This document shows positions 31,373 to 50,698 of a stretch of DNA of 64,000 bases, piece after piece. Source of the stretch: an uncultured Kordia sp. (GTDB taxonomy: Bacteria > Bacteroidota > Bacteroidia > Flavobacteriales > Flavobacteriaceae). The notes beneath the pieces were generated by a model that did no database searches, had not been told where the DNA came from, and saw only the letters and a list, made by a program, of their open reading frames with translations. The stretch lies in NCBI RefSeq assembly GCF_947489565.1, contig NZ_CANLEA010000002.1, forward strand, positions 62,001 to 126,000, read 5' to 3'. Both the position numbers and the translations under genes were made by a program. How positions within the stretch are numbered: the first letter of the stretch is position 1; every line of letters starts with the position of its first letter.

Positions 31373-31548
31373 CTATCTCCCTAACATTAATATTTCATTG
31401 ACCAAAATCTCGGTTACATACTTTGTCTCACCTTCGTCAGTTTCATACGTACGATTGGTCAACTTCCCTTCCACTGCAATTTCTTTTCCTTTCAATAAAT
31501 ATTTTTCAACGATTTCGGCCGTTTTGTTCCAAGCGATTAGGTTGTGCC
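31373..31548 (-). pseudogene. ssb: ssb paralogue, 3' fragment (5' part absent)
   Basis: The minus strand encodes HNLIAWNKTAEIVEKYLLKG, continuing through KEIAVEGKLTNRTYETDEGE to NEILMLGR and a TAG stop at 31373. This matches the second half of a single-stranded-DNA-binding OB-fold (typically W-H-x-x-x-A-W-x-K-T-A-E). The frame runs upstream only to 31548; there the codon for the conserved Trp reads AGG, and sequence further up belongs to the recombinase gene. The start and first ~55 residues are not anywhere in the window. The protein would end without the acidic tip that recruits partners, so it is likely a paralogue and not the housekeeping SSB. The break is interpreted as integration of the element to the right. 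Confidence 0.85.
31537..31548. other. Probable attachment-site core shared by ssb and the recombinase gene end
   Basis: On the minus strand GGCACAACCTAA reads GG-CAC-AAC-CTA-A.. in the ssb frame (W)HNL and GGC-ACA-ACC-TAA in the recombinase frame (GTT-stop). Homology to ssb stops at its left edge, so the recombination crossover must lie in or beside it. Exact core length needs the other junction. Confidence 0.6.
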
Positions 31549-33018
31549 TTTACGTTGGTCATTCTGACCCAATTCTAAAGAAGATAGCGGAGCTATTTGC
31601 TTTAAGTTGAATTTGATATTGTGACCATCAAATTCAATGCGATTGACTACAGACTGTACAATGTATCGTTTCTCGGGACGATCTAGTGTGTGCCATTTAG
31701 CATATAAATCTTTTGATTGTGTAAGTACATTTGGTAAGAAACCTTGTGTTTCTTTCATCTCTTGAAGTTCTCCTTTTAAAACGGCGATATTTGATATGAT
31801 CTGTTCTTTCTGTTCAAACAATGGTTCATAATGTTTCTTAAAACCTTTGATCGGTAATTCACCTTCAATATTAAGCGTAAGCAATCGATCCATTTTCGCT
31901 TCAACTTCTTCCAAATGATTTTCTGCAAATTCAATCTCATCTTGTTTCAATTTCATTTCCTCATTACTTGATTGATTATACGAATTGAGTTCTTCTTCTG
32001 AGATGATGAATTGTTCTAATCGTGTTTTGAAAATTTCTTCTAAATCATCTTTATCTATTCTAACTTTACAGGCAACACAAGTATATTTATTTGTCTTTGT
32101 AGTCAAAGACATTTTGTGTCCATTGTGGCAATACAGATAACTTGTAAAAATATGCACACGTTGGTTTAATGGTTTTCGTTGATTACTCTTGGCTTCTTGT
32201 TCCCTTAAAATTGCATTACATGAGTCCCATAGTTCTTCTGAAATAATAGCAGGACATGGATCAAATCGCCATTCTGATTTAGGTTTTATACCATCTGGAT
32301 TATCCTCTGTTCGTTTTGCTGTATGATTGGATTTACGAATACCTTTCGCATCTGAGTTTTTAATAAGTCGTGAAATCGTCATATCTGACCATTTTTTATT
32401 CTTCCGAGTTCTATATCCTCGTTCATTGAGAATACGAGCAACCGTTGTTCTTCGTTTATGTTCTAGAAAAAGTTCATAAATCAATTTTCGTATAGGAGCC
32501 TCTTCTTCATTGATAACTACAAAAGAGTTTTCAACCTTATATCCGTATGATGGAATACCGCCAACAAATTTTCCCATTTCTCTGCGTGTCTCAATTGATG
32601 CCATCATACGTTCCAAATTGTTCTCACGCTCCCATTGTCCCATCGCTCCAATCATCGTATAGAACAACCTTCCACTTGCGGTAGATGTATCAATATGTTC
32701 TCCAAGAGAAACCATATTGGCTTCATGTTTTTGAAAGTAATTTGAGTAATAGATTAACTCTTCTGTATTACGGGCTAATCGAGCAAGTTTACTGAAGATA
32801 AGTGTTTGGATAGTTCCACTTTTAATATCTTCAAGCATTCGTTGTGTTTCTTTGTGATTGATTGTTGATTTACCAGAAATACTAGGAAGTGTATATACTT
32901 TTTTCACATTCCATCCTTTTAATTCTGCGTATTTCCGTCCTCTATTTTCGTGTATTTCGGGACTCTCTTGATTCTTGGCATCAATAAAGCTTACACGCAC
33001 ATATATACCTACATTCAT
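31537..33018 (-). CDS. Large serine recombinase (integrase of the element)
   Basis: 493 residues. Resolvase catalytic domain at 1-150 with nucleophile Ser10 in GIYVRVS, the LIFSKLARLARNTEEL helix and a MIGAMGQWERENNLERM segment; a 'Recombinase' domain (about 160-270) with GGIPSYGYKVENS; a zinc-ribbon (LYCHNGHKM ... YTCVACKVR, about 305-335); a coiled coil (about 350-440); and a short C-terminus. This is the layout of large serine integrases, which recombine attP and attB in one direction unless a directionality factor is present. The last codons and stop overlap ssb-derived sequence. It is the last gene of a minus-strand run starting at the RHS gene. Confidence 0.93.
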   Translation of the reverse strand: MNVGIYVRVSFIDAKNQESPEIHENRGRKYAELKGWNVKKVYTLPSISGKSTINHKETQRMLEDIKSGTIQTLIFSKLARLARNTEELIYYSNYFQKHEANMVSLGEHIDTSTASGRLFYTMIGAMGQWERENNLERMMASIETRREMGKFVGGIPSYGYKVENSFVVINEEEAPIRKLIYELFLEHKRRTTVARILNERGYRTRKNKKWSDMTISRLIKNSDAKGIRKSNHTAKRTEDNPDGIKPKSEWRFDPCPAIISEELWDSCNAILREQEAKSNQRKPLNQRVHIFTSYLYCHNGHKMSLTTKTNKYTCVACKVRIDKDDLEEIFKTRLEQFIISEEELNSYNQSSNEEMKLKQDEIEFAENHLEEVEAKMDRLLTLNIEGELPIKGFKKHYEPLFEQKEQIISNIAVLKGELQEMKETQGFLPNVLTQSKDLYAKWHTLDRPEKRYIVQSVVNRIEFDGHNIKFNLKQIAPLSSLELGQNDQRKGTT

Positions 33019-33087
33019 ATTATTGCTTTTTTACGTTTATATCAATTTATAAAGAGTGTAAAGTGAATCCAAGGTAATATTGAAGTT

Positions 33088-36000
33088 TTATTTTTTCTTC
33101 GAGAGAATCTTCAGAATTCGATCTCTAATACTCTTTCCATCATTTGATAGTGTGGCATTTATTTCAGTTGTGATTCTGAATCCTTTGATGATTTCTTGTC
33201 GTGGTTGTCTATTCACATTAAAACTATCTAATACCTCAACAATCTTATTCGGTTGGATAAATACAACATGAGAAAAATCTTTTTTGGAGAGCTGCTCTTT
33301 TGCTAATTTTTCAATTTTATCCAAGTGATGTTTATTCTTGGAAATCATAATTACAGGAAGATATCCATTAAGCAAACATTTTTTAATGTTTTTGACTTCG
33401 TATTCTGGTGTATTAGTTATGGAGATTTCAAAAGCGATTTGTACACCTTCTTTTTCCAAGGTAATATCTATTCTTCCGCCCTCTTTTGTTTCTTTTTCAA
33501 TCGTAGAAATGAAATTACGCTCCTGTCCTATTTTCTTAATTAGCCTTTGTAGATATTGATGATCACGATTACGTCTTGAAACTTCTTCGGCTTCTATGAG
33601 TTTTTCTTTTTCTTCTTCTGAAACAGTTTTTCTTTGCTCTTGACTTGTATCGGTATCAACGCGCACTTCTTGCTGTGGATTCTTTTTTGACTCTACTTTT
33701 TTAGTTTCTAATTTCTCTTCCTTTTTCTCAGTTTTACTTGTCTTTCTGTTTATTGTTTTGGGTAATAGTTCTTTCAGCAGTTCTTCAATTTCTGCCCTAG
33801 GTTTTCCGTAGGTAGTTTGTGAATGTTCAATAACTGACTGACGAATGATGTCGGATATGTCACTTGGTTCAGATAGATTACTTGTAGTTATATTACAATC
33901 ATCTTGCGAACTTCCAATCCGCACTATTGCTTCTCCAATACCGAGGCTTTGAAGGTCATCCATATCAAAAGCTGAAAAACCACTTTCAAGCTGTTTGGCG
34001 TCACGATCACCCAAGCGGAAACAAATACGGATATATGGATTTGAAATAACCGAGTTGAGAATTTTTGGATCATCAATTTGTGCTAATTCTTGATGAGCAA
34101 GGATCAACCCAAGACCATATTTTCTTGCACCACTCAATATTGAGGTGATTGAGTTTGTCATGAAGTTTTGAAATTCATCAAGGTAGATGTAATACGGATG
34201 GCGTTCGTGCTTTGAAAGTTGTTGCCGTCCTTGTGCTACTTGATTGAATTTAGAAAGGAACAACGAACCTAAGAGATAGCTATTTTCTTCTCCAATGAGT
34301 CCTTGTGATAATTTGATGAGGAGAATCTTTTTTTCTTCAATACAGGCTCTAAAATCAACGCCATGCTGTTGTGCAAACATATAACGAATGATCTTTGGAC
34401 GTAAAAACGTATCTATACGAGTTAACAATGGTGCAATCCCTTTCCGTACAAATTGATACTCGTTATTCCAGTAGTAATGAATTGATGGATCATGTACATG
34501 TTCTAAAAAATCATGTCTAAAATCATCTTCAAGTAAGAAACGTTTTAATTCAATGAGTGTTCCGCCTTTAGTACTTTCCAAAAACGTATTAATCGCTTGC
34601 GACAATACCGCACTCATATTATCTCCCCATGAGGTTGCAAAACGTTTAAATGCTCCGACTAAATCTGAACTTAGCACCATCTTTTCAGCTTCAGTGCTTG
34701 CATGAAGAAGATTAAAGCCAATAGGGGAGTCAAGGTGCGACGGATCAATTAAAATCACATCGTTTTTTCGGTATTCAGGAATACGTATTAAAATATCAGA
34801 GACTATGTCGCCATGTGGATCAAATATGCAACAACCATTACCTTGTTGCATATCGTCTAACATCATATTAGCTATCAAAGTTGATTTACCAACACCAGTT
34901 GCCCCAATAATATGGATATGACGTAAACGTGCTTCATCATTTACTCCAACTTTGTATGATTCGCCATAATGCTCATTGATACCAAGCGTATATTTTCCAT
35001 TGATATATTCTTGAGCAACTCGTTTCGTTACTTTTCCTTGTATACCTAATTTAGTTGATACAACTGTTTTGTTTGGATAATGAGCGAAGGTTGATAGTTC
35101 TTTGGCATTGAGGATAAAACCAAGGCGATTACTTGTTCTATGATGAAGATTAAAATGATGAAAGTCATATGCATATCCTTCGTTTGATAATGGTATCAAC
35201 TTGTTATATTCTGATTGCGAAATGCTCGTAATACTTCGTGATAATTCTTGAGCAAGATATTGACTACGATAGTTACTATTTCCTTGCGTTGCTACTCGCA
35301 TAACAACAGAGAATAGTGGTTGAGATATTTTTTCTTTCGCACATTGAGGCATCTCTGGTGCATCTGAAAAGAATGATCCACCAGTACCATCAGAAACGGC
35401 ATAAGGAATGTCTTTTGCAAGTAGAGATGTGATTCCTTTAAAAAGCATTTGAAATACAACTACATCGTCTTGTTTTAATGAATCCATTGTTGCAATGATT
35501 GAGGTCAACGGATCAATGCTAAATGAATCGGCAGAGGTGATTGTTCGCATAAATTCATTATTCAAACCAAAATCAGCGATAGCAACTTCGTATCTATCGT
35601 CAAAACCGAAACTCTGAATATCAACCTCACGGATGATCGCTGTTGGGAAATATGCTGATAGTTGAGACGAAATACGTTCTTTATCTTGTATCCTACATAC
35701 TATTTGTACCTGAATATCATCATACGTACCGACTATTTCAAAGGAAATTGGGTAATCCGAAAACGATAGCATACTCAGGAATTCAATATTCCTATGTGGG
35801 AGAATATCTGATCCGTTCGGGAATGAAAGGGAAAATCCACTAAAAAGAGGAATGTCGTTGATGTCAATAAAGCGAGGATCGAGAGGGAAACTATCTTGTT
35901 CTATCTTCGGTATTTCGGGCTTTGAAGGTTTGAATAAATTTCCAATCTGCTCAAAGATTGAAGGAACACGTCCGTCATCAACGGAATAGGAATCTGCAAA

Positions 36001-36123
36001 ACTTTTGTGATAAAAGGGAAGATATGGCGGTTCAATATCAACAGGTGTACCGAAAAGATAGTAACCACGATTTCGGTACTCCCATTGATAGAAATGAAGA
36101 GTTGCTAATTCACTTGCCGTCAT
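33088..36123 (-). CDS. VirD4/TraD-like conjugative-type ATPase fused to a nuclease-like domain
   Basis: 1011 residues, no N-terminal transmembrane helices. Residues 1-390 form an unassigned domain with a ferredoxin-like look. An ATPase core follows: Walker A GATGVGKST at about 406-414, DPHGDIVSDIL, Walker B YYIYLDEFQNF near 645, and a LILAHQELAQID sensor region. This is the TraD/VirD4-HerA class (type IV secretion DNA-binding/TraM-recognition). After a Lys/Glu-rich linker (about 790-860) the last ~150 residues carry GGRIDITLEKEGVQIAFEIS and VIMISKNK, resembling a PD-(D/E)xK core. It probably moves or processes DNA for the element. Next to the recombinase (69 bp) and a membrane protein (11 bp) that may anchor it. 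Confidence 0.85.
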   Translation of the reverse strand: MTASELATLHFYQWEYRNRGYYLFGTPVDIEPPYLPFYHKSFADSYSVDDGRVPSIFEQIGNLFKPSKPEIPKIEQDSFPLDPRFIDINDIPLFSGFSLSFPNGSDILPHRNIEFLSMLSFSDYPISFEIVGTYDDIQVQIVCRIQDKERISSQLSAYFPTAIIREVDIQSFGFDDRYEVAIADFGLNNEFMRTITSADSFSIDPLTSIIATMDSLKQDDVVVFQMLFKGITSLLAKDIPYAVSDGTGGSFFSDAPEMPQCAKEKISQPLFSVVMRVATQGNSNYRSQYLAQELSRSITSISQSEYNKLIPLSNEGYAYDFHHFNLHHRTSNRLGFILNAKELSTFAHYPNKTVVSTKLGIQGKVTKRVAQEYINGKYTLGINEHYGESYKVGVNDEARLRHIHIIGATGVGKSTLIANMMLDDMQQGNGCCIFDPHGDIVSDILIRIPEYRKNDVILIDPSHLDSPIGFNLLHASTEAEKMVLSSDLVGAFKRFATSWGDNMSAVLSQAINTFLESTKGGTLIELKRFLLEDDFRHDFLEHVHDPSIHYYWNNEYQFVRKGIAPLLTRIDTFLRPKIIRYMFAQQHGVDFRACIEEKKILLIKLSQGLIGEENSYLLGSLFLSKFNQVAQGRQQLSKHERHPYYIYLDEFQNFMTNSITSILSGARKYGLGLILAHQELAQIDDPKILNSVISNPYIRICFRLGDRDAKQLESGFSAFDMDDLQSLGIGEAIVRIGSSQDDCNITTSNLSEPSDISDIIRQSVIEHSQTTYGKPRAEIEELLKELLPKTINRKTSKTEKKEEKLETKKVESKKNPQQEVRVDTDTSQEQRKTVSEEEKEKLIEAEEVSRRNRDHQYLQRLIKKIGQERNFISTIEKETKEGGRIDITLEKEGVQIAFEISITNTPEYEVKNIKKCLLNGYLPVIMISKNKHHLDKIEKLAKEQLSKKDFSHVVFIQPNKIVEVLDSFNVNRQPRQEIIKGFRITTEINATLSNDGKSIRDRILKILSKKK

Positions 36124-36134
36124 TTACAAGTAAT

Positions 36135-36719
36135 TTAACGTATAAAAATATTTTTCATTATTGGTTTTCGATCTTCATCAGGAATTAATCGCATGCCTTT
36201 TTCTTTCATAATAGCATCTACCACTGATTTAATAACTGCATCGCCGTAAGTCATAAACATGCTTGCACTATCATGACGATAAAAAGTATCAGGATATAGT
36301 AGCTTTACCAATCTGTGTCCAACAGCTGGAATTTTACTGAGAAGTATTTGGAATGCTGAATTTCTATTGATAAGCCAATAGGATACAAAAAAACCTTTTC
36401 CAAATGGAGCTCCACAGATGTAGAAGTCAAATTCTTTCCATGTAACTTTTAAATAGAGTCGTACGCTAGAAAATTGAGCACCTTCATAAAGTTGCACTTC
36501 ATCAAATTGAATTCCTTTGATGCCTTTTGACTTTAACTCTTCTTCAATAAGTTTATAAAATTCTTTAGTAGAAAATTTAAAATCATCAATTAAGGTACTC
36601 CAATGCGAATGGTAATTTTTCAAAAGTTTTCCAAAAATTGAAGCAATGACAAATATGATAATGATAGCAAATAAAAGATATCTACCATATTCCATGAGGT
36701 AGTAAATGACGTAATTCAT
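36135..36719 (-). CDS. Membrane-anchored protein of unknown function, partner of the VirD4-like ATPase
   Basis: 194 residues: one N-terminal transmembrane helix (YLLFAIIIIFVIASIFGKLL, about 14-33), then a cytoplasmic alpha/beta domain with FKFSTKEFYKLIEEELKSKG and FYICGAPFGKGFFVSYWL, and a C-terminal stretch MTYGDAVIKSVVDAIMKEKG. No family recognised. It ends 11 bp upstream of the ATPase start, so the two are surely coupled; since the ATPase has no membrane helices, this protein may supply the anchor. Inference only. Confidence 0.75.
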   Translation of the reverse strand: MNYVIYYLMEYGRYLLFAIIIIFVIASIFGKLLKNYHSHWSTLIDDFKFSTKEFYKLIEEELKSKGIKGIQFDEVQLYEGAQFSSVRLYLKVTWKEFDFYICGAPFGKGFFVSYWLINRNSAFQILLSKIPAVGHRLVKLLYPDTFYRHDSASMFMTYGDAVIKSVVDAIMKEKGMRLIPDEDRKPIMKNIFIR

Positions 36720-36742
36720 AGTTTATAATTTTTGGTTAGATA

Positions 36743-37729
36743 TTATTGAACAAGAAATGTTTGTATATCTCCAACATTGGTTGCTCCATCTCCATCAGTA
36801 ACATAGATCAACCACTGATATTCAGTTCCTGTTTGAAGATTATTAAATGTATACTGAATACTATTTCCTTCTTGTAATAGATTAAGGCTAGAACCTATTT
36901 CAGAAGCATAAACTCTATAACTGAGATCAGAATTATTAGTTTCAAGATCATCTCCAATCCATGATAGGGTAATTGAGTTTCCAGTAACAATTGCGCCATC
37001 TTGTGGACTTAAGTATTGAAGTTGGGGAGCAGTATTTATTACGCCATCACCTTGAGTATATAAGCTACGAGCTTCACTATAACTACTATTATTCCCATTA
37101 GTTGCTTCTACAATCCAATACAACGCCGTTCCTTGTGGTAAGGTTACATTATATTCTGTGTCATACGTAGTATAGATATATTGTGCTTGATTAAAATCAG
37201 GAACATCAGATATATAGAGATTATACTCAATAGTATTTCCAGATGGATTATCAGATGCATTCCATTGAAAAGTCAAATTATCATTAGAACATTCTGTTTC
37301 ATGAAGTGGAAAAATAAGGGTTGGTGCTGATGGATATAAACCATCTTCTAAATAGAACGACCATGTTTGGCTATAATTGCTAATATTTCCATTACTATCA
37401 CGTGTAGTTACTCTCCAATAATATGTTTGATTTGGAGTTAAGTATGCTGTCGTGCTATTTGTTTCACTAAAATGATGAAAAGGATTACTGAAATTGGGAT
37501 CGGTATCAGCATACCAACGATAACCAATAATATCATTATCAGGATCAGATGCTACAGTCCATTCAAAAGAAATTTCTTGATTTACTTCTTGTGTGATTAT
37601 AGTACTTCCATCATTTGGTGATATAAGACTTGGTGCGCTTGGTGTAATATTGTTGTTAGTTATCGTTTCTTCCTCATCAGAGCAAGAATAAATCAGAATT
37701 ATCGATAATAAGAGAACTATTTTTTTCAT
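36743..37729 (-). CDS. Lipoprotein with three fibronectin type III-like domains
   Basis: 328 residues. Lipobox LIYSC (Cys16) followed by SDEEE, an acidic start typical of surface-exposed Bacteroidota lipoproteins. Three similar ~95-residue beta domains follow (about 32-130, 132-225, 233-328), each starting PSxPxLIxPxDGxxI and containing YRWYADTDPNF / YNLYISDVPDF and YYWRVTTRDSNGN motifs, i.e. FN3 folds. Likely a surface binding or structural protein. Its start overlaps the preceding gene by 4 bp. Confidence 0.8.
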   Translation of the reverse strand: MKKIVLLLSIILIYSCSDEEETITNNNITPSAPSLISPNDGSTIITQEVNQEISFEWTVASDPDNDIIGYRWYADTDPNFSNPFHHFSETNSTTAYLTPNQTYYWRVTTRDSNGNISNYSQTWSFYLEDGLYPSAPTLIFPLHETECSNDNLTFQWNASDNPSGNTIEYNLYISDVPDFNQAQYIYTTYDTEYNVTLPQGTALYWIVEATNGNNSSYSEARSLYTQGDGVINTAPQLQYLSPQDGAIVTGNSITLSWIGDDLETNNSDLSYRVYASEIGSSLNLLQEGNSIQYTFNNLQTGTEYQWLIYVTDGDGATNVGDIQTFLVQ

Positions 37730-38664
37730 TCTTTGATAATTTTAAAAGTTTTATCTCCAAGCGTTGGGAAAGTCGCAACATATACGCCACTTGGTAAATG
37801 TTGAATTGATATTTCTATTTGTTTATTTTTTATCGTTGGTGTAAACACACCTATTAAGCGTCCACTTAGATCATAGAGTTCTACATTTATGGAAGTAATA
37901 TTTTCTATTTTCGGAATTGAAAAGTGCACTTTATCGCGAGTTGGATTTGGATAAAGTGTAACGGTATCTAGTATTGATATTGTTTTGCTAAATGTTCCTT
38001 CACATGCCTTTGCCGTTGATATTTCTACAAGATCACCATGATTTACATCAAAGCTGAATTCTGAATCATTGGTATTCAGAATGATTTCATTGTTTATTCT
38101 TACCGTGTACGGCGCTGTTCCTGCGTTTATATTAACAGCATATCTATTCGCACCGCTATCATTACCATTCCACGTTGCATCAACATCAAGTAATTCAGGC
38201 TCGTCAATATTAAGAATGAATGTTTTTTGATAGGTGCTTTCTGGTATGTCTTGAATTGTGATGTACAAGTAATATTCGCCACTATCTAGGTTTTCAAATT
38301 GCAACTCCCAATTATTTATTGGATTTGCTGTTATGGTCTCGTCAACATTATTATCACTGCCAACAAGGCGAGCAACATACTTATTTCTTCGCAATGCTTC
38401 GATAGTTATAATTCCATCATTTGAATTAATACAGGTAAGTCCAATCGCATTAATACTATAGTTATTGTATGGTAGTTCTACATCAATCGTTCTTCCTAAA
38501 CGATTACCAAGATTATCGTAATTATATTCATATACAATTCCGCTATAATAAACAACCTTCACCAAACGGTTCAGGTTGTCGTATTCATAGATTCTACTTT
38601 CTTCGTGGATTTGGGCGAAGAGTGCTATTGGCGTAAGAAAGATTAAAAACAATATTTTTTTCAT
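37726..38664 (-). CDS. T9SS-secreted protein with a minimal YD-repeat segment
   Basis: 312 residues from MKKILFLIFLTPIALFAQ, chosen as the cleanest signal peptide and because it avoids the upstream stop; an ATG three codons earlier (38673) would overlap that gene. Right after the signal come two YD repeats, RIYEYDNLNRLVKVVYYSG and VYEYNYDNLGNRLGRTIDV, the unit from which RHS shells are built. Two small beta domains follow, and the last ~75 residues are a type A T9SS sorting domain (TLYPNPTRDKVHFSIP ... LPSGVYVATF). Exported to the cell surface by the Por system. It lies downstream of the RHS gene, 2 bp after a small gene. Confidence 0.82.
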   Translation of the reverse strand: MKKILFLIFLTPIALFAQIHEESRIYEYDNLNRLVKVVYYSGIVYEYNYDNLGNRLGRTIDVELPYNNYSINAIGLTCINSNDGIITIEALRRNKYVARLVGSDNNVDETITANPINNWELQFENLDSGEYYLYITIQDIPESTYQKTFILNIDEPELLDVDATWNGNDSGANRYAVNINAGTAPYTVRINNEIILNTNDSEFSFDVNHGDLVEISTAKACEGTFSKTISILDTVTLYPNPTRDKVHFSIPKIENITSINVELYDLSGRLIGVFTPTIKNKQIEISIQHLPSGVYVATFPTLGDKTFKIIKE

Positions 38665-38666
38665 TA

Positions 38667-39008
38667 TTAACAAATTTTAATTCTTTTTATTTCTTTATCT
38701 GTGTGTAAGGTAATTTCTAATGAATCTTGTTCCTTTACAACAAAATCACCCTTATTTGCCATATCAGCAAAACGATTACCGTTCTTATCTATACAACTAT
38801 AAAACTTAATCTTTTTATGATTATCTTCAAGAGTAAGAAATTCTCCTGTTCTAGTAAAAGCAACACTTTCTACAGTCCCCTCAAATTCAAGTGTTAACAT
38901 TTTCTCTCTATTTTGATTTTGTCTTACCAGAACACTATTATCTTGCAGTAATAAAAATGCCAAACCAGTAAAAATGTAAATTCCTGTTATTGTTATTATT
39001 TTTTTCAT
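38667..39008 (-). CDS. Small membrane-anchored protein, candidate immunity protein for the left RHS
   Basis: 113 residues: an N-terminal hydrophobic helix (ITITGIYIFTGLAFLLLQ), then a small beta-rich domain with EFEGTVESVAFTRTGEFLTL and EQDSLEITLHTDKEIKRI. No family recognised. It begins 5 bp after the stop of the RHS gene, the position expected for an immunity gene of a polymorphic toxin, and the helix would keep it in the periplasm or membrane. The immunity role is inferred from position only. Confidence 0.6.
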   Translation of the reverse strand: MKKIITITGIYIFTGLAFLLLQDNSVLVRQNQNREKMLTLEFEGTVESVAFTRTGEFLTLEDNHKKIKFYSCIDKNGNRFADMANKGDFVVKEQDSLEITLHTDKEIKRIKIC

Positions 39009-39013
39009 AATAA

Positions 39014-42000
39014 TTATCTACAAAGTATCTTATCCAATCCAAAAAAATTTAAAAAGCCACGAACTCTGTTAGTATCTAAAAGTATCCTTTCACCAGTTGT
39101 AGACGCATGAAATCCTAAACCAGGCCCATAGCTAGCTCCAATTTCATATAGGTTACCATTACCAATACCATTTGGTTCAGATTTTCCTGCTTGAAAACCA
39201 CCAGCAGCAAGATCTAGAGAAATGCTTGCAGCTTCCTCCTGAAATAAGTTTGAATTAATAAATTCTTTTTGATAGCCTCCTTCACCAGTAAATTCTTGTC
39301 CAGAAATCCCTATATCAGCTCCAGCATAAACACCTCCATTTATCTGAAAAGAACCAGAAATTATTGGGCAAGAAGACTTATCTTCTCCTGAAAGTATGTA
39401 AGTTGACGAAAGTCCTAAAGAAATTCCTACAGGTGCAGCAAATCCTGCACTTGCGTTTATGCTGACAGCATCCAATCCTGAAGCCTCTGCTAAATTTAAA
39501 ATATTCTTAAAATCTTTACCATTTACATCAATTCTACTAATAGGATTATTCCCTGAATATGGATACAAATTCGTACTCCAAATAGGGTCTTGGGTTAGAA
39601 ATCGTCCAATACGAGCATCGTAGTATCTTGCACGGATATAATAGAGTCCTTTGTCTCTATCATCTTCGACTATACCATATTTGCCTAAAAAAGTAAATGA
39701 ATTATGGTCAGGAATATGCCCTACACTAAAAGGTCGTGTATTGCCAAAATCATCATATATATAATCTCGGTATTCTTCAGCATCAGAATTACTTATAATA
39801 ACAACATTACCTCTTAAATCACCGTGATAGTAAAGAATGCCTCCTGCGGGTAAGATGCTTGCTTCCAAGCCTAAACCATAAACATGATTGCGTCTAACAC
39901 CCGCTCCATTTACATTCAGCTCTTGAATAATATTTTGACCAATAATATCCCAGATGTATCGGCGTGTTCCTAAATTTGGAGTATCAGTTTTTAAGACTCG
40001 ATTACCATAAGCATCGTACTCAAACACAAAACTTTCTCCAGAAGCTGTACGACTGATAAGTTGATCGTCTATATTATATACATGTGATGCGTAACCATCA
40101 GAAACTAAGTTCCCATCATCATTGAAAGCATACGATCCGTCTATATGATTGTTTTCATTATAACTGAAGTTCTGCTCCTCTTTATTTGGACTGAAATGTA
40201 AGTGTTCATAACTAACTTCATATTCAACATCTTGATTGGTTATGTTTCCTCTGTCATCAATAGTAACAGCTTCTTTATACAAAGGGTTATCAGCAGGCCC
40301 AACATGGTTGACTCCTGTTCTTCTTCCTGCTTCATCATAGAAAAAGATTGTTCTAACACCATTTCCATAAAGAATATTACTCACCAAATCGTCTTGTCGA
40401 TATTGATAATCTGCTATGGTAGTATAATTTCCATTGATTCTAACACGAACCCGTGTTAAGCGGTTTTTTGCATCGTAGGTGTAAAAGACTTTTACATCAT
40501 CTCCTATATCAGCGTTTGGGTATTCTATTTCAGTTATATTACCTACATCATCATAATCATACTTTACCTTTTCGTTTGTTTCATCATTTTCTACTTCATC
40601 CAGTCTATTCAGATAATCATAATCTAAGTTATAGCGTACATCACTAGAGGCTATACTTTTTATTAGTCCTTCTTTTTTTCCACCACTACTACCGTAATAG
40701 TCAATATCAGTAATTGTTCCTGCATCATTGAGCTTTCCATTACTTAAATAGTCATAGTGAATGACATCTCCGCTTGGTTTAATATAGTTATCGAGTGTAC
40801 CATTTTCATTGTATTCATATTGCTTTACTAATGAACCAAAAGTTTCACTTGTGACTTGATCGTCTTCATTATAAGTAAATAATGTAGAAACGTTGTTGGC
40901 ATTAATAATTTCAATTAAATTATCATTTGCATCGTAGTTAAAACTTGTTGTGAGTCCACCAATATTAGTATGTGTCAGTAGATTATCATTTGCATCATAA
41001 TTATATGATGACGTTTGCCCATTGATAGTTTTCGACAACATTCTATTGACACCGTCATACGTAAATGAAGAAGTTAGATCTTCTGGTGCTGTTATTGTCG
41101 AGACTGCTCCATCATCTTCATACGTATAATTGACGGTAATTCCTTCTTGGTTAGTAATTGATGTTAATTGACCATGATTGTCATAGGTAAGGTATATGAA
41201 GTTTCCTAGAGCATCCTCAATAGATGTAAGATTACTATTATTGTCATAATTAAACCGTGTTTCATTTCCATTTTCATCTCGATAACGGATTAAATTGTTA
41301 TCGTTGTCATACCAAAAATCTTCGTCTTCATTACTTTCTATCCTTCGTGATTTAACATTTCCCTTATCGTCATAGGTATAATAGGTATCTAATCCATTGA
41401 CGTCTATATTAGTTGGTAAGAGTGCATTAGTGTTCGTTGGTGATGGATACTCTATATCAATATCTTGAGTGTCATTTTGAAACTCTGTTACCATTCCGTC
41501 AACATTGAACTCATAATTAAATTGTTGAGTATTGCCTGTATTTGGCATAGGAACTTCTAACTCAGCAGTCATTGGAGTTGATGAATTTGAATAATCAAAT
41601 TGGACATCGACGCCTACTGCTGGATTATCATTTATTTGGTATTCTTTGAGTTTTCCATCATCATCTTCGTCGTAGCTAGCTTCAATAGTATTTCCCAGAG
41701 GAAGTTTTACTTTTCTTAGTAGAAATCGTTTGTACTGATGCTGATCTGGAATATCTTCATCATTTGAAACATAGAAATACTTTGTTCGTTGATTTTTTGC
41801 ATCATAAAATTTCTTGAGACGTTCTTCATTGTATTCAAAACGTATAATTCTATCTATTGGATCTTCTATGTAGTCAATAAAGTCAGTATTATTATGGTAG
41901 TAAAAACGTAGCTTCTTTCCTGAAGGTGCTTCAACCCATTTAATTCGCTCAAGATCGTTATCAACATCACTCGTTTCGTATTCAATATTTATTACATTTC

Positions 42001-43045
42001 CATTACTGTCTTCAATACGATAGAGATAAAATATTTCTAAGGAATTATCGAGCCGTTCAAAGAAGTAATGCATTTGATCTTTGGTAGTAATTTCTATATT
42101 ATCACCGCCATCAAATTCATCCAAATCATCATATACGCCTTTAGTGAGGTATTCATTTTCATTATCGTTGTATATATGAATCGTACCGTCTGACCATTTT
42201 ATATAATACAGATCATCGTTTCCTATAACATTTTCTTCACGAATGATGTATGAATTATAAGTATGTGTCCAACCACGTCCAAGCGGTTGGATAGGAAAAT
42301 ATGATTGTGGTAACTCTACAAGTTGCGTGCTGTAGTAATGAGAAAAGTTCAAACTCATTTTTCTATCAGGAATGACAAAGCTATTTTTTGCATAATGACT
42401 AAATACGCCTTGTTCGAGTCCTCTTAGAAATCCCATATTTTCAGGTTGATAATTATTTGGTGTGAAATAATTATTTGGATTGAGTAGAGCTGAATTTGAA
42501 ACGGGATGATAATCGGTATTTTGAATACGATTAATAATTGTCAACAATTCATTTGTAGTAATACCAAAATCTCCATTTAAGTTACTTCCGAAAAGTCCGT
42601 CAAGTAAATCTAAATCATCTGCCTCATTGATATAACCAAAATAAGGATGACTGGAATCTACATCATTAAATGTAACAGTACCTGTGTAGTCAGGTTGAAT
42701 GTTCCATGCTTCAAGTAATGCTACAATTGCCTCTGTTCGTCCAACAGCACCAGTTGTCAGTAAATAATCACCTGCGGCTAGGTGTCCAAGTACGGTGACA
42801 CCGTCATTATAATCAAGATAGCTGACTAAACTGATTTTCTTTTGTAATGTTGTTGAAAAGTTTAAATCAACAAATGCAATGGGATAATCGACCATTGGTT
42901 GATAATCATCAGGATCATTTTGATCATAAACGACTTCATAAATGAGTCCTGCTAATACTGCGCGTGACACACAATCATTTGTACATTGAGAATACGTATA
43001 TTGTGAAAAAAATAAAAGAAAAAGGAGAAGTAATTTTTTGTTCAT
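39014..43045 (-). CDS. RHS/YD-repeat protein with S-layer-homology-like N-terminus and variable C-terminal tip
   Basis: 1343 residues. Signal peptide (1-19); residues ~25-175 resemble one or two S-layer homology repeats (GRTEAIVALLEAW, VTFNDVDSSHPYFGYINEA, GITTNELLTIINRI). An RHS N-terminal domain follows (about 190-540), then some twenty YD repeats (FNYDANDNLLTHTNIGG type, about 545-1060), and the RHS core end GLYYIRARYYDARIGRFLTQ at about 1135, followed by YSGNNPISRIDVNG. The last ~165 residues, after the core, are a Gly/Ala/Ser-rich unrecognised domain with LGLSSTYIL and LDLAAGGFQAG stretches, the place where RHS proteins carry toxins. Heads a minus-strand gene run to the recombinase. Confidence 0.9.
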   Translation of the reverse strand: MNKKLLLLFLLFFSQYTYSQCTNDCVSRAVLAGLIYEVVYDQNDPDDYQPMVDYPIAFVDLNFSTTLQKKISLVSYLDYNDGVTVLGHLAAGDYLLTTGAVGRTEAIVALLEAWNIQPDYTGTVTFNDVDSSHPYFGYINEADDLDLLDGLFGSNLNGDFGITTNELLTIINRIQNTDYHPVSNSALLNPNNYFTPNNYQPENMGFLRGLEQGVFSHYAKNSFVIPDRKMSLNFSHYYSTQLVELPQSYFPIQPLGRGWTHTYNSYIIREENVIGNDDLYYIKWSDGTIHIYNDNENEYLTKGVYDDLDEFDGGDNIEITTKDQMHYFFERLDNSLEIFYLYRIEDSNGNVINIEYETSDVDNDLERIKWVEAPSGKKLRFYYHNNTDFIDYIEDPIDRIIRFEYNEERLKKFYDAKNQRTKYFYVSNDEDIPDQHQYKRFLLRKVKLPLGNTIEASYDEDDDGKLKEYQINDNPAVGVDVQFDYSNSSTPMTAELEVPMPNTGNTQQFNYEFNVDGMVTEFQNDTQDIDIEYPSPTNTNALLPTNIDVNGLDTYYTYDDKGNVKSRRIESNEDEDFWYDNDNNLIRYRDENGNETRFNYDNNSNLTSIEDALGNFIYLTYDNHGQLTSITNQEGITVNYTYEDDGAVSTITAPEDLTSSFTYDGVNRMLSKTINGQTSSYNYDANDNLLTHTNIGGLTTSFNYDANDNLIEIINANNVSTLFTYNEDDQVTSETFGSLVKQYEYNENGTLDNYIKPSGDVIHYDYLSNGKLNDAGTITDIDYYGSSGGKKEGLIKSIASSDVRYNLDYDYLNRLDEVENDETNEKVKYDYDDVGNITEIEYPNADIGDDVKVFYTYDAKNRLTRVRVRINGNYTTIADYQYRQDDLVSNILYGNGVRTIFFYDEAGRRTGVNHVGPADNPLYKEAVTIDDRGNITNQDVEYEVSYEHLHFSPNKEEQNFSYNENNHIDGSYAFNDDGNLVSDGYASHVYNIDDQLISRTASGESFVFEYDAYGNRVLKTDTPNLGTRRYIWDIIGQNIIQELNVNGAGVRRNHVYGLGLEASILPAGGILYYHGDLRGNVVIISNSDAEEYRDYIYDDFGNTRPFSVGHIPDHNSFTFLGKYGIVEDDRDKGLYYIRARYYDARIGRFLTQDPIWSTNLYPYSGNNPISRIDVNGKDFKNILNLAEASGLDAVSINASAGFAAPVGISLGLSSTYILSGEDKSSCPIISGSFQINGGVYAGADIGISGQEFTGEGGYQKEFINSNLFQEEAASISLDLAAGGFQAGKSEPNGIGNGNLYEIGASYGPGLGFHASTTGERILLDTNRVRGFLNFFGLDKILCR

Positions 43046-43088
43046 ATTGATACACTTTTGGGATTTGATGTATTCAATACTAATAAAA

Positions 43089-43131
43089 ATTAGCCTTTAA
43101 AAACTATGGTTTTGATAGTTATGTGGCTAAT
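43089..43131 (-). terminator. Nested hairpin with T-run between the TPR regulator and the RHS gene
   Basis: Outer arms ATTAGCC/GGCTAAT and inner arms AACTAT/ATAGTT around a 7-nt loop; on the minus strand the structure is followed by TTTTATTAG. It lies between the regulator stop (43178) and the RHS start (43045), so it should end the regulator transcript or act as a leader structure for the RHS mRNA. Confidence 0.55.
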
Positions 43132-43177
43132 GGAAATAAAAAGTAACCCTTATGGGATACTTCTTGTAAAGCATAAG

Positions 43178-44872
43178 TTAATCATTAAATTCCTTTAACT
43201 TTTTTATATAATGATTTTTCAGAAATTGTTTATCAATATTATCAATATTATCAACTTCTTTAATCTTTTCAATTAATCGTGCCCCTCGTTTTTTAGCAGC
43301 AAATTCTGTTATGTGTAATTTTTCTCCGATCTGTTTATTTGTAAATCTTTGTGCTCTTAACATCCAATATTCAATAAAAAGATCATTAATTCCATACTGT
43401 TTTTTTAATTTTTGATGATGTTTAGCTATGTCCTCTTGATTTGAAGTTGCTCCTTTTTGGATTTGTTCAAATAATTTACTATCACTTTTTTGTAACTGTG
43501 ATTCTGTTTCTTTGAGTTTTTTGCCTTGTTTTCTTTTTCTGTAAACAAGAAAAGCTAACACTATCAACAAACCTGCACTACCTACAAATAATATATTGCG
43601 ATAGTTTTTTTCTTCTTTATTAATTGCTTTGAGTTTATTATTTTCTTCTGCTATTTTGTCATAGTTATATTTATGAGCTGCTATTTTTCCATTGTAATCT
43701 TGCTCAAACTCATCAAGCTTCTTTCTTATAGCTATATGGCGTTTCGATACTGTTTTGATCATATTATCTGGATATACATCAATTAATAACTCCAATGACT
43801 CTAAATGATGACGATACAGATTTTTTTGCTCTGCCAGGCTATCTGCTTTCTCAGCATACATCCGCGCATTTTTTAAATCATTTTTTGCTTTGTAGTATTC
43901 AGCGAGATGTATATAAACCACTAGCATCCCTTCATCTCGTTGTAATTCAGTATGAATATCAAGTGCACGCATAAAAGCAGGCAATACATCTGGTTTTGGG
44001 TTTTCTCTGAAATATGCTTTTGCTTTGTTATCAATGAGCGTTGCTTTAAGCCAACGCTTTTTTGGTTGTGATAATAATGAATCATAGGCTAATGCTTCAT
44101 CAAAATACTCATGCGCTAGTTTAAAATCACCTGTATTAGAATAGACAATACCAATATTATTTAGCGTTTGTAGATAATAGAATGTATTGTCGAGATTTTT
44201 GCGTAGATCGTATGCTTTTAAATTATATTTCAATGCTTCTTTCCAGTTCTTCTGATGCTTATAAATCAACCCAATATTATTATAAATGGAAGCAATTCTT
44301 CTTTTTTGGTTTGTACCTTCAAAAAATTTAAGTGCGTCAATCGATGTTATTAAAGCAGCACCATCAACACCAATCTTTTTCTGGCTGATAGCAATATTTA
44401 AAAGTGCTTTCCCTGCACCAAGTGAATCACCTATACGCGCAAATACTTCTGAACTTTTTGCAAAGTAATAATAGGTACTATCAGGATGCGTTTTATCGAT
44501 ATAATGATAATAACCACCATAATAAAGTGATCGTGCCCATGCTAAAGAGTCTCCATATTGTTCAGCAATCTGAATATGTTCGGTAATATATTTTCGCATT
44601 TTTTCTTTGTCACCAATCTTATAGCTATATCTAACACAATTTTTCAATACCTTGTTTTTCAACGAATCATGTTGTACAGAATCTAATAGTATGTACGCGT
44701 CCTTACTGAATACATATTTTAGCGAATCTGAAATGGTAGTATCGTTGATTTTCTTGAGAAAGGTTTTAATACGTTCTTCATTACTAACGTATTGTTTTTG
44801 ATCACTTTGAGCAATTCCAAGACTAGTAAGGGTAAGAATAACGATAATAATAGCAATACGATAATTATTCAT
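43178..44872 (-). CDS. TPR-containing membrane regulator with C-terminal HTH
   Basis: 564 residues: signal peptide or membrane helix (IAIIIVILTLTSLGIAQS), about six tetratricopeptide repeats (about 90-350, e.g. RRIASIYNNIGLIYKHQKNW and YLQTLNNIGIVYSNTGDF), one transmembrane helix (NILFVGSAGLLIVLAFLVY, near 427-445), a coiled coil, and a C-terminal helix-turn-helix with RAQRFTNKQIGEKLHITEFA. Periplasmic sensing would be passed directly to a DNA-binding tail. Same layout as the protein at 13668 but not closely similar in sequence. It is immediately upstream of the left RHS gene on the same strand, so it may control it. Confidence 0.85.
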   Translation of the reverse strand: MNNYRIAIIIVILTLTSLGIAQSDQKQYVSNEERIKTFLKKINDTTISDSLKYVFSKDAYILLDSVQHDSLKNKVLKNCVRYSYKIGDKEKMRKYITEHIQIAEQYGDSLAWARSLYYGGYYHYIDKTHPDSTYYYFAKSSEVFARIGDSLGAGKALLNIAISQKKIGVDGAALITSIDALKFFEGTNQKRRIASIYNNIGLIYKHQKNWKEALKYNLKAYDLRKNLDNTFYYLQTLNNIGIVYSNTGDFKLAHEYFDEALAYDSLLSQPKKRWLKATLIDNKAKAYFRENPKPDVLPAFMRALDIHTELQRDEGMLVVYIHLAEYYKAKNDLKNARMYAEKADSLAEQKNLYRHHLESLELLIDVYPDNMIKTVSKRHIAIRKKLDEFEQDYNGKIAAHKYNYDKIAEENNKLKAINKEEKNYRNILFVGSAGLLIVLAFLVYRKRKQGKKLKETESQLQKSDSKLFEQIQKGATSNQEDIAKHHQKLKKQYGINDLFIEYWMLRAQRFTNKQIGEKLHITEFAAKKRGARLIEKIKEVDNIDNIDKQFLKNHYIKKLKEFND

Positions 44873-44932
44873 AATTATAAAGAAAATTATTTCATCTAAT
44901 ATAAATAAATATTGTAATTTTAATACTAATAC

Positions 44933-44964
44933 AAGAACAAATCCCTAGTAAAGGATTTGTTCTT
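44933..44964 (-). terminator. Hairpin terminator after the small lipoprotein gene
   Basis: AAGAACAAATCC, an 8-nt loop, then GGATTTGTTCTT: a perfect 12-bp stem, 8 bp beyond the lipoprotein stop on the minus strand. The T-run after it is weak (TTGTATTAG), stronger on the plus strand (TTTT). Confidence 0.6.
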
Positions 44965-44971
44965 TTGAAAA

Positions 44972-45130
44972 CTATTGAAAGTCATCCTCATCTGGTTTAG
45001 CTGGATCATCAGCTTCTCCATCAGTTGATTGTTCAACAGGAACCTCCAAATGATCATCATCTGTAGTACAAGAAGTTTGTAAAGCTATTGTGAAACACAA
45101 TAGAAAAAGTAATTTAATTTTTTTAATCAT
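44972..45130 (-). CDS. Small lipoprotein with acidic tail
   Basis: 52 residues from MIKKIKLLFLLCFTIALQTS-Cys, a complete lipoprotein signal with lipobox LQTSC, followed by TTDDD and a short Asp/Glu/Pro-rich mature peptide ending DEDDFQ. The upstream in-frame ATG at 45205 would add 25 residues before the signal and is unlikely. No domain. It is divergent from the kinase genes. Such tiny acidic lipoproteins are common in Bacteroidota and have no assigned role. Confidence 0.6.
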   Translation of the reverse strand: MIKKIKLLFLLCFTIALQTSCTTDDDHLEVPVEQSTDGEADDPAKPDEDDFQ

Positions 45131-45359
45131 GACATTTACATTTAAAAATGTCCTGATCCGGATTTGGCTCGCCACCAACGGACTAAAAGACGAGTCTTTG
45201 TGCACAAAGTTGTATTTACATTGAATACTATGATGTGAAAGTATTTAAATCTAATAGCTTAGAATAACTAGAATGAAAATGTTCCTTATTAAAAGGAAAA
45301 TCGCGTGGAAACAAATGAAAATATTATTGTGCCTATTCACTAACTTCAATTTACAGCCT

Positions 45360-47342
45360 ATGAGACAGTTATATATTTCCTTAATTTTTTCTTTTTTCTC
45401 TCTTTTTCTTTTTGGACAAAGCAATAACATTAAAATATCTCCTTCTCAGATAATAGATAAAGATGTAATTCAAAATCAGTTATTGGAATTTAAATCTAAA
45501 ACAGACTCTATACTTCTTATTGAAGATAAAAATGCAAATGCCTATAGAATTTCTGCATTTATTGATATTATTCAATTTCAATTTCCAATGGTAAAAAAGA
45601 AAATAAAGAAGGCTATATACTTAGATTCAATTACTAACAATGAAATTGGGTTAGCTGAAGATTATGATATTCTCGCAAGATACTACAAGGACTTAGGGAA
45701 AAATGACAGCGCATATATTTTTTGTAAAAAAGCACTATCATTACCTAAAAATAAAAATCCGAAACAAGCAGGTAGGCATTTAAAGAACCTGATGGCAATT
45801 TATAGTAATCGTGGGCAAAAAGATTCAGCCATGATTGTAATTAAAGATGCTATAGAATTTAGCTTACAAGCTCATGATTCATTAAATCTATTAATATTAA
45901 AAGCTGAGGAAAAAAATTTATTAACAAGAGGCACGCATGATTTAAAGACTGCATTTGATATATATTATTATGGGGAAAAGATAAATAACAATTTTGTAAA
46001 AGCTTTAGCCTATGGAAATATTGGAAAATATTATCAAAAAAAGAAAGACTCTATAGGTTTTAGTGTAAAATATCTCGACTCTGCCATTGTATTTTTCAAA
46101 AAATCAAAGAACTTTTATTTTCTAAACATAACATACCCTTCAAGAGCTTATGTAGCATCTAGAGATAGTTTAAGTAAAAAGAAACCGATAGACTATTATA
46201 AATTACAATATGATATGGTAAAAAATACAGAACATATCTATAAAGAAATGACAATGATTAACCTTGCAACAAAATATTATAAAATTGGAAGAGTTGATGA
46301 ATCAATAGCCATTTACAAATCAATTATAGAGCTATCAAAGAAAAAAGAAATCCAAAAAATACTAATTGCAATAAGTCATCAAAACTTATCTTCAATTTAT
46401 GAATACCAAAAAAATTATAAAGAAGCTTTGATTGAATATAAAGAACTTTATAAGAATGAAATGGAAGCATATTCAACAAAAGTTACTGATCAAGCAAATA
46501 AATATAAAATAGAATTTGAAACAGAAAAAAAGGAAAAAGAAAATCTCCAACTAAAAAATGACAATATTGAGCAAGAGTTATTAACACAAAAAGCAACTAC
46601 ACGAAATTGGATATTATTATTAGGTCTACTCATACTTAGTATCTCAGCTTTTTTCATTTGGAAGCGTTACAAGTCAGAAGCAAAAGCTAAAAAAACGATC
46701 AGTCAGCAAAAAAATGAAATTGAAAAGCAAAAGAACCTCGTTGAAACACTACAAAAAGAGCTACACCATAGAATGAAAAACAACCTTTCGTTTATAGACT
46801 TATTCATTAATCTTGCAAAAGGACGTTTCTCTAATAACAAGTATCAAACCAAGCTCAATGAGCTACAGAATAGAATGCGTAGTATGTTTGAAATACATAA
46901 ACAGCTTTTTAAAAAAGAGGATATTACATCAGTGCTGGCAAAAAAATATATAGATACATTGGTAGAAAATGTATGTGAAGCTTACAACAAGAATAATATC
47001 ATTATAACAAATGATACTCATGAAAATGAAACATTATTATCAAGCACCTCATTTCCTGTAGGATTGATTATTAATGAATTTGTAACCAATACTTTTAAAT
47101 ATGCTTTTAATGATAATGAAAACGGAACTATAAATATCAATTTAACATCTGATAGTAGTAATTATCATTTAACATTACATGATAATGGAAAGGGATTACC
47201 GCAAGATTTTGATATTAAAGACCTAGATTCATTTGGTATGGAAATAATACAGCTATTAACAAAGGAATATGGAGGTAAACTCACCCTCAATGGAGCTGGT
47301 GGAGTTTCTATGGATATATATTTACCTAAAATTGCTGCTTAA
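45360..47342 (+). CDS. TPR sensor histidine kinase (HisKA_2/HATPase), copy 1
   Basis: 660 residues from the ATG at 45360, which begins a proper signal peptide (MRQLYISLIFSFFSLFLFGQ); an ATG at 45273 adds 29 non-signal residues. TPR-like helices fill about 60-370, then a coiled coil, one transmembrane helix (WILLLGLLILSISAFFIW, about 418-435), a HisKA_2 dimerisation domain with ELHHRMKNNL (phospho-acceptor His469/470) and a HATPase domain with NEFVTNTFKYAF and DNGKGLP. Ends 54 bp before a close paralogue; the LytTR response regulator after that is the likely target. Confidence 0.9.
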   Translation: MRQLYISLIFSFFSLFLFGQSNNIKISPSQIIDKDVIQNQLLEFKSKTDSILLIEDKNANAYRISAFIDIIQFQFPMVKKKIKKAIYLDSITNNEIGLAEDYDILARYYKDLGKNDSAYIFCKKALSLPKNKNPKQAGRHLKNLMAIYSNRGQKDSAMIVIKDAIEFSLQAHDSLNLLILKAEEKNLLTRGTHDLKTAFDIYYYGEKINNNFVKALAYGNIGKYYQKKKDSIGFSVKYLDSAIVFFKKSKNFYFLNITYPSRAYVASRDSLSKKKPIDYYKLQYDMVKNTEHIYKEMTMINLATKYYKIGRVDESIAIYKSIIELSKKKEIQKILIAISHQNLSSIYEYQKNYKEALIEYKELYKNEMEAYSTKVTDQANKYKIEFETEKKEKENLQLKNDNIEQELLTQKATTRNWILLLGLLILSISAFFIWKRYKSEAKAKKTISQQKNEIEKQKNLVETLQKELHHRMKNNLSFIDLFINLAKGRFSNNKYQTKLNELQNRMRSMFEIHKQLFKKEDITSVLAKKYIDTLVENVCEAYNKNNIIITNDTHENETLLSSTSFPVGLIINEFVTNTFKYAFNDNENGTININLTSDSSNYHLTLHDNGKGLPQDFDIKDLDSFGMEIIQLLTKEYGGKLTLNGAGGVSMDIYLPKIAA

Positions 47343-47396
47343 TCTAATGGAAACATATTTACAAAGCTATATTATTAATAACTTATTCTTTAGAGT

Positions 47397-49454: not shown

Positions 49455-50356
49455 TGAAATCCAAAGCTCGTATACTTGTTGTAGAAGATAAGTCACTTAT
49501 ATACAAAAGACTTAAAAAAGTACTTAAAGAAAATTACTATTCTGTAGATTCTTATACTCCAAGTGTTAAAGATGCAATTGATAATATAGATCAAAAACGA
49601 CCAGACCTTGTATTACTTGATATTGATTTACAAGGTAATCATAATGGTATTTATCTTGGTAATTTGCTACAAAAGGAATATTCCATTCCTTTTATTTATG
49701 TTACAGATTTTGATGACGATCAAACATTTTATGAAAGTCTTAAAACTAAACATGACGATTTTGTTTCTAAGAAAGATATCAATCTTGACGAAACAGAGCC
49801 TTTGGTTATTCAAACTAAGCCATATCTTGATGAAAAGAGACTTATTCGTTCTATTCAGACGGTATTAGAACGAAATAAAAACAAACAATTCAAATACATA
49901 CAGAAAAAATCTATCATAGGGTTTGTAGATTATGTTAGTGAAACCAAGAACCTTCCTAAAGACCAATCACAGCAAAAAACTGTTGAACTAAAAGATATTA
50001 TACTTTTTACTCGAAACTCGACACAAATTAACGAAGCAGCATCAATTGGGAAAGATTACAAAGAATTTATCAAGCTTAAAGATAACTACATACGATTTTT
50101 CGATTGGCAGGGAACATCATTGTATCTACCGTGTAATCTAAAAAGCATACTACCTCATTTGCCAGACTATTTCGTTCAAATAAGTGACCACATGATCGTA
50201 AATATAAATCCTGATGGATTAGAAGGAACTATTAATGGTTCATTTTTTAAATTACGAGATGGAGAGAAATATAAAATTTCAGAAACCTATAAAACTGAAG
50301 TTAAAAAACGTATTTCTCAATTCTATATAACTAAGGATTCTATAAAAGATAAGTAG
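49454..50356 (+). CDS. LytTR-family response regulator
   Basis: 300 residues: receiver domain (1-130) with acidic pair ED near 11-12, phospho-acceptor Asp56 in LVLLDIDL and the conserved Lys-Pro in IQTKPYLDEK; C-terminal LytTR DNA-binding domain (about 190-295) with IKLKDNYIRFFDWQG, SILPHLPDYFVQISDHMIVN and LRDGEKYKIS. Partner of the two upstream histidine kinases. LytTR regulators bind pairs of direct repeats; a candidate lies at 53285-53316. Convergent with the small XRE gene. Confidence 0.92.
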   Translation: MKSKARILVVEDKSLIYKRLKKVLKENYYSVDSYTPSVKDAIDNIDQKRPDLVLLDIDLQGNHNGIYLGNLLQKEYSIPFIYVTDFDDDQTFYESLKTKHDDFVSKKDINLDETEPLVIQTKPYLDEKRLIRSIQTVLERNKNKQFKYIQKKSIIGFVDYVSETKNLPKDQSQQKTVELKDIILFTRNSTQINEAASIGKDYKEFIKLKDNYIRFFDWQGTSLYLPCNLKSILPHLPDYFVQISDHMIVNINPDGLEGTINGSFFKLRDGEKYKISETYKTEVKKRISQFYITKDSIKDK

Positions 50357-50376
50357 TTTTCAAAATATAATTGACA

Positions 50377-50616: not shown

Positions 50617-50698
50617 GAAACAAATTAATTCCAATTCACATTAATTTGTTACCATTTATAAATTCATACTTATAAGTAGTATTTTTAAAAATAAAAAC

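Follow-up and report, generated by a model that had tools for sequence, protein, structure and literature searches.

What becomes of an integrase gene when its reading frame is closed by the very target that it has broken? The question arises in a 6.42-Mb draft genome of Kordia, of which we analysed one stretch of 64,000 nucleotides (C2:62001-126000, hereafter the window). On its minus strand the 3′ part of an ssb gene runs directly into the end of a gene for a large serine recombinase. A first-pass annotation, made from the letters alone, had read this as an element integrated within an accessory ssb copy and had proposed that excision might operate a reversible gene switch. We found that the anatomy is as it described and that the far end of the element holds a domain to which the recombinase gene would be joined in a circular form. 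The switch is treated in the Discussion.

The host ssb gene is split by an integrated element

The window encodes the end of a 110-aa SSB (..LIAWNKTAEIVEKYLLKGKEIAVEGKLTNRTYETDEGETKYVTEILVNEILMLGR, followed by its stop codon; Table 1). The annotation had suggested that the missing 5′ half be sought beyond the right-hand end of the window; it is indeed there, separated from the 3′ half by 44.55 kb. When the two flanks are joined, an element of 44,553 bp drops out and an uninterrupted 110-aa SSB results, in which ..ENTYWHN is followed directly by LIAWNKT.. The four bases GGCA of the core are kept across the whole group of ssb-targeting elements described below, the sole exception being AGCA at attL of G763.

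Table 1. Features of the element and its target, in positions of the window or of the contig (C2).
Feature	Location	Strand	Remark
Host ssb 3′ half with stop codon (attL, left-hand host/element junction)	window 31373..31548	-	flanks join to intact SSB
Large serine recombinase, 493 aa integrated	window 31537..33018	-	last codons and stop (31537-31544) from host ssb
Core GGCACAAC, common to attL and attR	window 31541..31548	-	GGCA at 31545-31548; dyad centre CA
Element, left 32.5 kb	window 31545..64000		remainder of the 44.55 kb outside the window, to C2:138101
attP left arm, inside recombinase coding sequence	window 31549..31570	-	imperfect inverted repeat with right arm at C2:138093 and below
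TrwB/HerA-like ATPase, coupling-protein-like, 1011 aa	window 33088..36123	-	PF10412; directly upstream of recombinase
RHS-repeat proteins, PF05593 in three ORFs	window 37726-43045; 53868-57470	-; +	element cargo
Two TPR histidine kinases and response regulator	window 45273-50356		element cargo
Secreted reprolysin-like metallopeptidase	window 50768-52957		element cargo
Element's intact ssb	C2:137482-137814	-	behind tail, near right end of element
HTH tail	C2:137826-138101	-	open frame from core, 91 codons, just inside attR, recombinase strand
Host ssb 5′ half	C2:138094-138258	-	12.1 kb right of window end; stops at same core

Most related strains carry the locus in its unoccupied form: the small ssb is intact, beside the same GNAT gene, in 8 of the 10 other genomes of the genus Kordia. 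The remaining two are G005, which has its own copy of the element at the locus, and G007, whose contig breaks off within the small ssb, at codon 53. This contig end (L046, G007:C12:1-159) falls near the integration core, in a genome without a match to a P0001-like recombinase. A second, longer ssb is present in all 11 genomes of the genus (open frames of 157-187 codons), which agrees with the suggestion that the split copy is accessory. The possibility that the fragment is an old, decayed gene unconnected with the recombinase can be set aside; it ends exactly at the recombination core, and the nine close relatives of the recombinase, together with G826, show the same arrangement.

The same GNAT gene is present in the genome of the window, about 4 kb further out than in its relatives. 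The stretch of about 4 kb between the ssb upstream region and this gene lies outside the window (C2:~138370-142360; L003, L004), carries a second RadC and is probably another insertion adjoining the element. About 100 nt immediately 5′ of the host ssb are conserved among relatives in the genus, which makes it probable that the host promoter is still present at attR. To the left of the ssb fragment, a 3768-codon ORF on the plus strand is followed by a 332-aa ORF (window 18865-31174 together; the shorter ORF at 30176-31174) whose sequence matches the last part of the giant ORF (29341-30168) at 63% identity. This shorter ORF is a partial duplication of recent date, lying next to the integration site.

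The recombinase frame is predicted to continue into a helix-turn-helix tail

The end of the recombinase gene overlaps the ssb 3′ half out of frame and reaches the crossover core without a stop codon of its own. Its final codons, GGC ACA ACC TAA, use host ssb bases, and the claim that the frame is completed by target DNA therefore stands. Judged by its domains, by short att sites with a dyad round a central dinucleotide and by the splitting of the target at the core, the enzyme is a large serine recombinase: it matches Resolvase (PF00239, 100.1 bits against a cut-off of 23.3) and Recombinase (PF07508, 71.5 bits against 21.1), as well as solved serine integrases. XisF and Ccr are the closest curated NCBIfam families, with scores that fall far short of the thresholds set for them (89.1 of 375 and 122.8 of 900 bits).

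The putative attP is a near-palindrome within the coding sequence. Across the ssb group, synonymous sites show more constraint in the last 26 recombinase codons, the part with the left att arm, than in the remainder of the gene (0.66 vs 0.51, permutation p = 0.01). A motif similar to that of the ATPase directly upstream occurs no more than 1200 nt upstream of the recombinase in 10/10 ssb-group genomes. Of the transfer genes that mark an ICE or IME (relaxase and coupling protein), the element shows the TrwB-like ATPase that adjoins the recombinase; no relaxase was found among the element proteins scanned, a subset of its ORFs.

At the other end of the element, an open frame starts at the core on the recombinase strand and in the recombinase phase. 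Its product matches the XRE-family HTH_3 domain (27.3 bits, gathering score 23; 32.7 bits for the homologue in Zhouia). The first-pass annotation had remarked that the circular form would have a different C-terminus unless attP carried the same bases. The predicted difference is the gain of this entire 91-residue domain: across the circle junction ...NDQRKGTT would give way to ALTICTLELTAKAPPKKGYP...ITI and a stop codon, with a product of 581 aa vs 493 aa in the integrated state. As far as sequence comparison goes, the recombinase is complete without this tail, and the alignment to the XisF profile reaches its end at residue 465.

The second Kordia copy, in G005, has the same arrangement round a more divergent ssb, with recombinase and tail 84% and 86% identical to those of the window genome. 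Between the two tails, differences fall 10/10/27 at codon positions 1/2/3. Over nine pairs of tails, pN/pS ranges from 0.05 to 0.56 for codons 8-30 and from 0.07 to 0.42 for codons 31-84; by these measures the tail is under purifying selection. The conservation starts upstream of any conserved ATG, which indicates that the tail protein is made in some state. Within the ssb group, the tails have an in-frame TTG near the core; at 10 of 15 attR sites there is no ATG in the tail frame between the last stop codon and the core, and at the other 5 an upstream ATG is present in that frame.

The same anatomy in the ssb-targeting group

A scan of a species-genome collection (84,980 genomes) for the recombinase returned 10 loci. 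Nine belong to close relatives (52-83% identity) in Kordia, Polaribacter, Flavivirga, Zhouia, Aequorivita and other Flavobacteriaceae, and in 9/9 of these the recombinase ends inside an ssb 3′ half, as it does in G826; the tenth, a Ruminococcus locus with 26% identity (L104), is left out of this count. In seven of these genomes no tail had been sought earlier; it was predicted there and then found in every one. It is rare overall, occurring in 7/397 genomes of the family and 3/395 of the order, the window genome being included in both.

The order ssb 5′ half, core, tail and intact element ssb holds at 15/15 attR copies, two of them from G763 and one with a decayed tail (G684). The element ssb starts 280-288 nt past the core throughout; its start overlaps the tail end by 14-17 nt in 11 of the 15 and lies 11-12 nt beyond it in 3, the last being the decayed tail. 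Both ends could be located in 11 genomes. They lie on the same contig and strand, 30 to 52 kb apart, in seven (G000, G005, G298, G761, G764, G765, G767), on different contigs in three (G762, G763, G766), and in opposite orientation in G296. In this last genome attR and attL are 54 kb apart (L062/L086, G296:C1:2546502 and 2601091), a layout that suggests an inversion after integration, or two elements.

The recombinase frame is in phase 0 at the core and continues into the tail in 10/10 ssb-group genomes, an agreement that partly reflects common descent within the subfamily. G296 is left out of this count, G762, G763 and G766 were paired by genome, and one of the two G763 tails was used. The integrated proteins, of 493-516 aa, have 10 different ends, from GTT to 25 residues. 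The predicted circle ORFs are 581-590 aa long.

A second subfamily with other targets

Among 166 genomes of the genus of G764 (Polaribacter), 15 have recombinases over the threshold, several of which form a second subfamily with 36-44% identity to the Polaribacter query. Their tails are longer, with two HTH-like regions, and were predicted and then found in 12 of the 13 genomes searched; tail and recombinase share one contig and strand in 9/13. Recombinase and tail are in the same phase in 8/8 scored pairs (circle ORFs of 639-649 aa), here too partly a reflection of descent. The unscored genomes are G815 (recombinase locus partly masked), G848 (not collinear), G131 and G171 (parts on different contigs) and G919 (no tail). 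An ATG lies just past the core in 4/8 of these tails.

Cores in this subfamily were picked by eye, with shared bases, a dyad and a restored target as guides, those of G779, G874 and G803 resting on the dyad and a shared TATA. The attP arms are palindromic (GGGGGACAAAAC/GTTTTGTCCCCC in G928). Rebuilding the empty sites restores long frames in G330, G928, G847 and G765, which we take to be dprA (G330), comM (G928 and G847) and a gene for a calcium-repeat protein (G765); no long frame is restored by the rebuilt sites of G779, G874 and G803, and G134 was left out of the comparison.

Fused and decayed copies, and a search for free ones

One genome, G131, has the two parts joined: at locus L094 one open frame takes in a recombinase end, 69% identical to its counterpart in G765, and a tail homologue with 42% identity to L127, the layout predicted for attP. 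This copy is decayed, its recombinase gene having stops elsewhere. A search for further fusions with the L094 junction matched 3 of 397 family genomes, of which only G131 itself spanned the junction, and no circular or excised form was seen in the assemblies examined. We also considered whether free copies reside in viruses or plasmids, and rejected this: pattern scans of IMG/VR gave no relative of the recombinase or of the tail, and plasmid and phage collections gave no tail and only recombinase matches below 60% identity (20.6-31.9% among the matches listed). Decayed tails occur in G684 and G355. In the latter (L063, G355:C6) what is left of the tail stands directly against the end of a tyrosine recombinase ORF (..SCTATLTICTI and stop), with a broken ssb behind it, as if another type of recombinase had used or captured the same site; a clean fusion with the tyrosine recombinase was rejected because of stops and a frameshift.

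Cargo of the element

The cargo within the window is listed in Table 1. The right part of the element (L003:5284-17414 = C2:125284-137414) looks like a defence island, with a helicase matching PADLOC PDC-S28, a NACHT ATPase, a D12 DNA methyltransferase and RadC. It also holds a second integrase, of the tyrosine type (L003:8143-9123).

Discussion

What makes serine integrases act in one direction, and what makes them reversible, is a central question about these enzymes, and their use as tools depends on it. For excision, ordinary serine integrases require a separate recombination directionality factor (RDF; PMC3783163). The elements described here suggest an arrangement in which the state of the DNA itself decides which form of the enzyme is encoded. 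In the circle, which we infer to form, a complete serine recombinase would lead through a short linker, which doubles as the near-palindromic attP, into an XRE-type HTH tail; the element ssb would follow, overlapping the tail or starting 11-12 nt later. Crossover with attB, in the Trp-His-Asn codons of the host ssb, would cut the integrase gene at the linker. The recombinase would remain at attL, its C-terminus made up of whatever host codons follow, and the tail would be stranded at attR, where it has no conserved start codon. With attP inside the integrase gene, integration necessarily removes the tail. The free element would thus encode a tailed recombinase and the resident element a tailless one, excision rebuilding the tailed form. 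The fusion protein would be produced in the circle, the state in which the element itself supplies the upstream reading frame.

That integration swaps the C-terminal domain of the integrase in this way is, on the DNA evidence, very probable, notwithstanding that the only fused copy lies in a recombinase gene with internal stops, that the ends are inverted in G296 and that G848 is not collinear. To the explanation as a whole, in which the tail is shed on integration from an attP-in-gene integrase and the tailed and tailless forms are functionally different, we give a probability of roughly 0.7. The two forms most likely differ in recombination direction or in regulation. Our tentative preference, at somewhat less than even odds and drawn from the anatomy, is for a direct part in recombination direction, since presence of the tail would track the substrate of the enzyme, which is attP for the circle and attL with attR for the integrated element. 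The tail would then be a DNA-binding module that enables the circle form to integrate or biases it towards integration, and its loss would turn the resident enzyme into a different catalyst. Such an integrase might represent a new, self-editing class among bacterial integrases, in that recombination would remove and restore a DNA-binding domain and two proteins from one gene would carry out integration and excision; it could have a built-in direction control, whether in place of a separate directionality factor or in addition to one, a suggestion we likewise put forward tentatively.

The main rival to a direction role keeps the swap and makes the tail a transcription regulator. The tailed circle form would repress its own operon of ATPase, recombinase, tail and ssb, which would form a single gene run in the circle, and integration would both lift this self-repression and place the element ssb behind the host ssb promoter, probably kept at attR. 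The HTH is of the XRE/Cro type, which is typical of repressors. However, no operator was identified, and a separate repressor would need neither fusion to the enzyme nor an attP between the two, both of which are predicted in two subfamilies; we regard this reading as a serious candidate that is nevertheless doubtful. A free tail protein made from a TTG or ATG near the core is possible, and the start codons available in the ssb group, in half of the second-subfamily tails and at a third of the ssb-type attR sites might be taken to mean that the HTH is simply a separate small gene whose frame match with the recombinase is incidental. This is unlikely given that 10/10 ssb-group recombinases lack a stop of their own ahead of the core, that the frame is kept in 18/18 scored pairs, that conservation begins upstream of any conserved ATG and that L094 is fused. 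We give almost no weight to an assembly artefact or an old remnant without meaning. Decay is seen in some tails (G684, G355), and for both members of the Kordia pair the assembly is a draft, but the same anatomy recurs in many genomes and at several targets, with purifying selection on the tail and a distance of 280-288 nt from core to element ssb.

Much the same fate befalls the switch proposed in the first-pass annotation, in which excision would restore ssb and alter host physiology in the manner of comK or sigK. The target is split precisely, excision would indeed restore it, and the recombinase is distantly like XisF, the enzyme that excises the fdxN element. Against this, a complete element ssb stands just behind the broken one at all 15 attR sites, and other elements of the class lie in dprA or comM, or in what seem to be intergenic sites. 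Because the element brings its own ssb, an on/off switch of ssb is very unlikely: SSB would be supplied in both states, and the target function would not be absent while the element is integrated, as it is in a developmental gene switch. The element brings a whole replacement for what it breaks. We also considered that the element ssb might serve as a general guard against re-insertion, and rejected this; although 9 of 15 copies carry Ser or Pro at the core instead of Asn, Asn is kept in the other 6 (TGGCATAAT), and GGCATAAT occurs at sites that have been used.

Several known systems share parts of this anatomy. The archaeal 'suicidal' integrases of SSV1, pTN3 and pT26-2 likewise have attP inside the integrase gene, which integration splits and excision would restore (PMC8371274). 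Our predicted circle ORFs cross attP in 10/10 ssb-group and 8/8 second-subfamily pairs, the circle being known by prediction. The archaeal enzymes, however, are tyrosine recombinases split into inactive parts, whereas the Flavobacteriaceae serine recombinase keeps its recognised domains in one frame and would lose only the HTH tail. That 2021 review describes self-disrupting recombinases as exclusively archaeal (PMC8371274), and our elements would extend the principle from archaeal tyrosine to bacterial serine enzymes. In the integration-dependent immunity of mycobacteriophage BPs, attP also lies in a coding sequence and integration changes a C-terminus and an activity through the loss of 33 residues; there the altered protein is a repressor and the lost part a degradation tag, in contrast to a recombinase and a folded DNA-binding domain here (PMC4557955). 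Destruction of a target gene with a whole replacement carried along is known from tRNA-dependent lysogeny, where the target is a tRNA and the enzyme a tyrosine integrase rather than the protein gene ssb and a serine recombinase, for which the need of a replacement is putative (PMC10865867). In synthetic integrase-RDF fusions, a domain added to a serine integrase changes the direction of recombination (PMC5737554). Those fusions are artificial and permanent, whereas the join in Kordia would be made and broken by recombination itself, with an HTH-like tail whose RDF function is putative. If the tail does set direction, it would be their natural counterpart and a new kind of switch. Searches of an open-access library turned up no account of a serine integrase losing a C-terminal domain when it integrates, which is weak evidence of absence.

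In two subfamilies and several target genes, then, an attP inside the gene seems to couple the form of the enzyme to the state of the DNA. One practical consequence is that annotation of integrated copies will divide a single gene into two puzzling parts, a recombinase whose end is random and an HTH protein without a start. Finally, ssb, dprA and comM are DNA-processing genes linked to natural transformation, and their repeated appearance as targets (L093/L152 in G330, L135/L156 in G928, L140/L155 in G847 and the ssb group) may not be due to chance.
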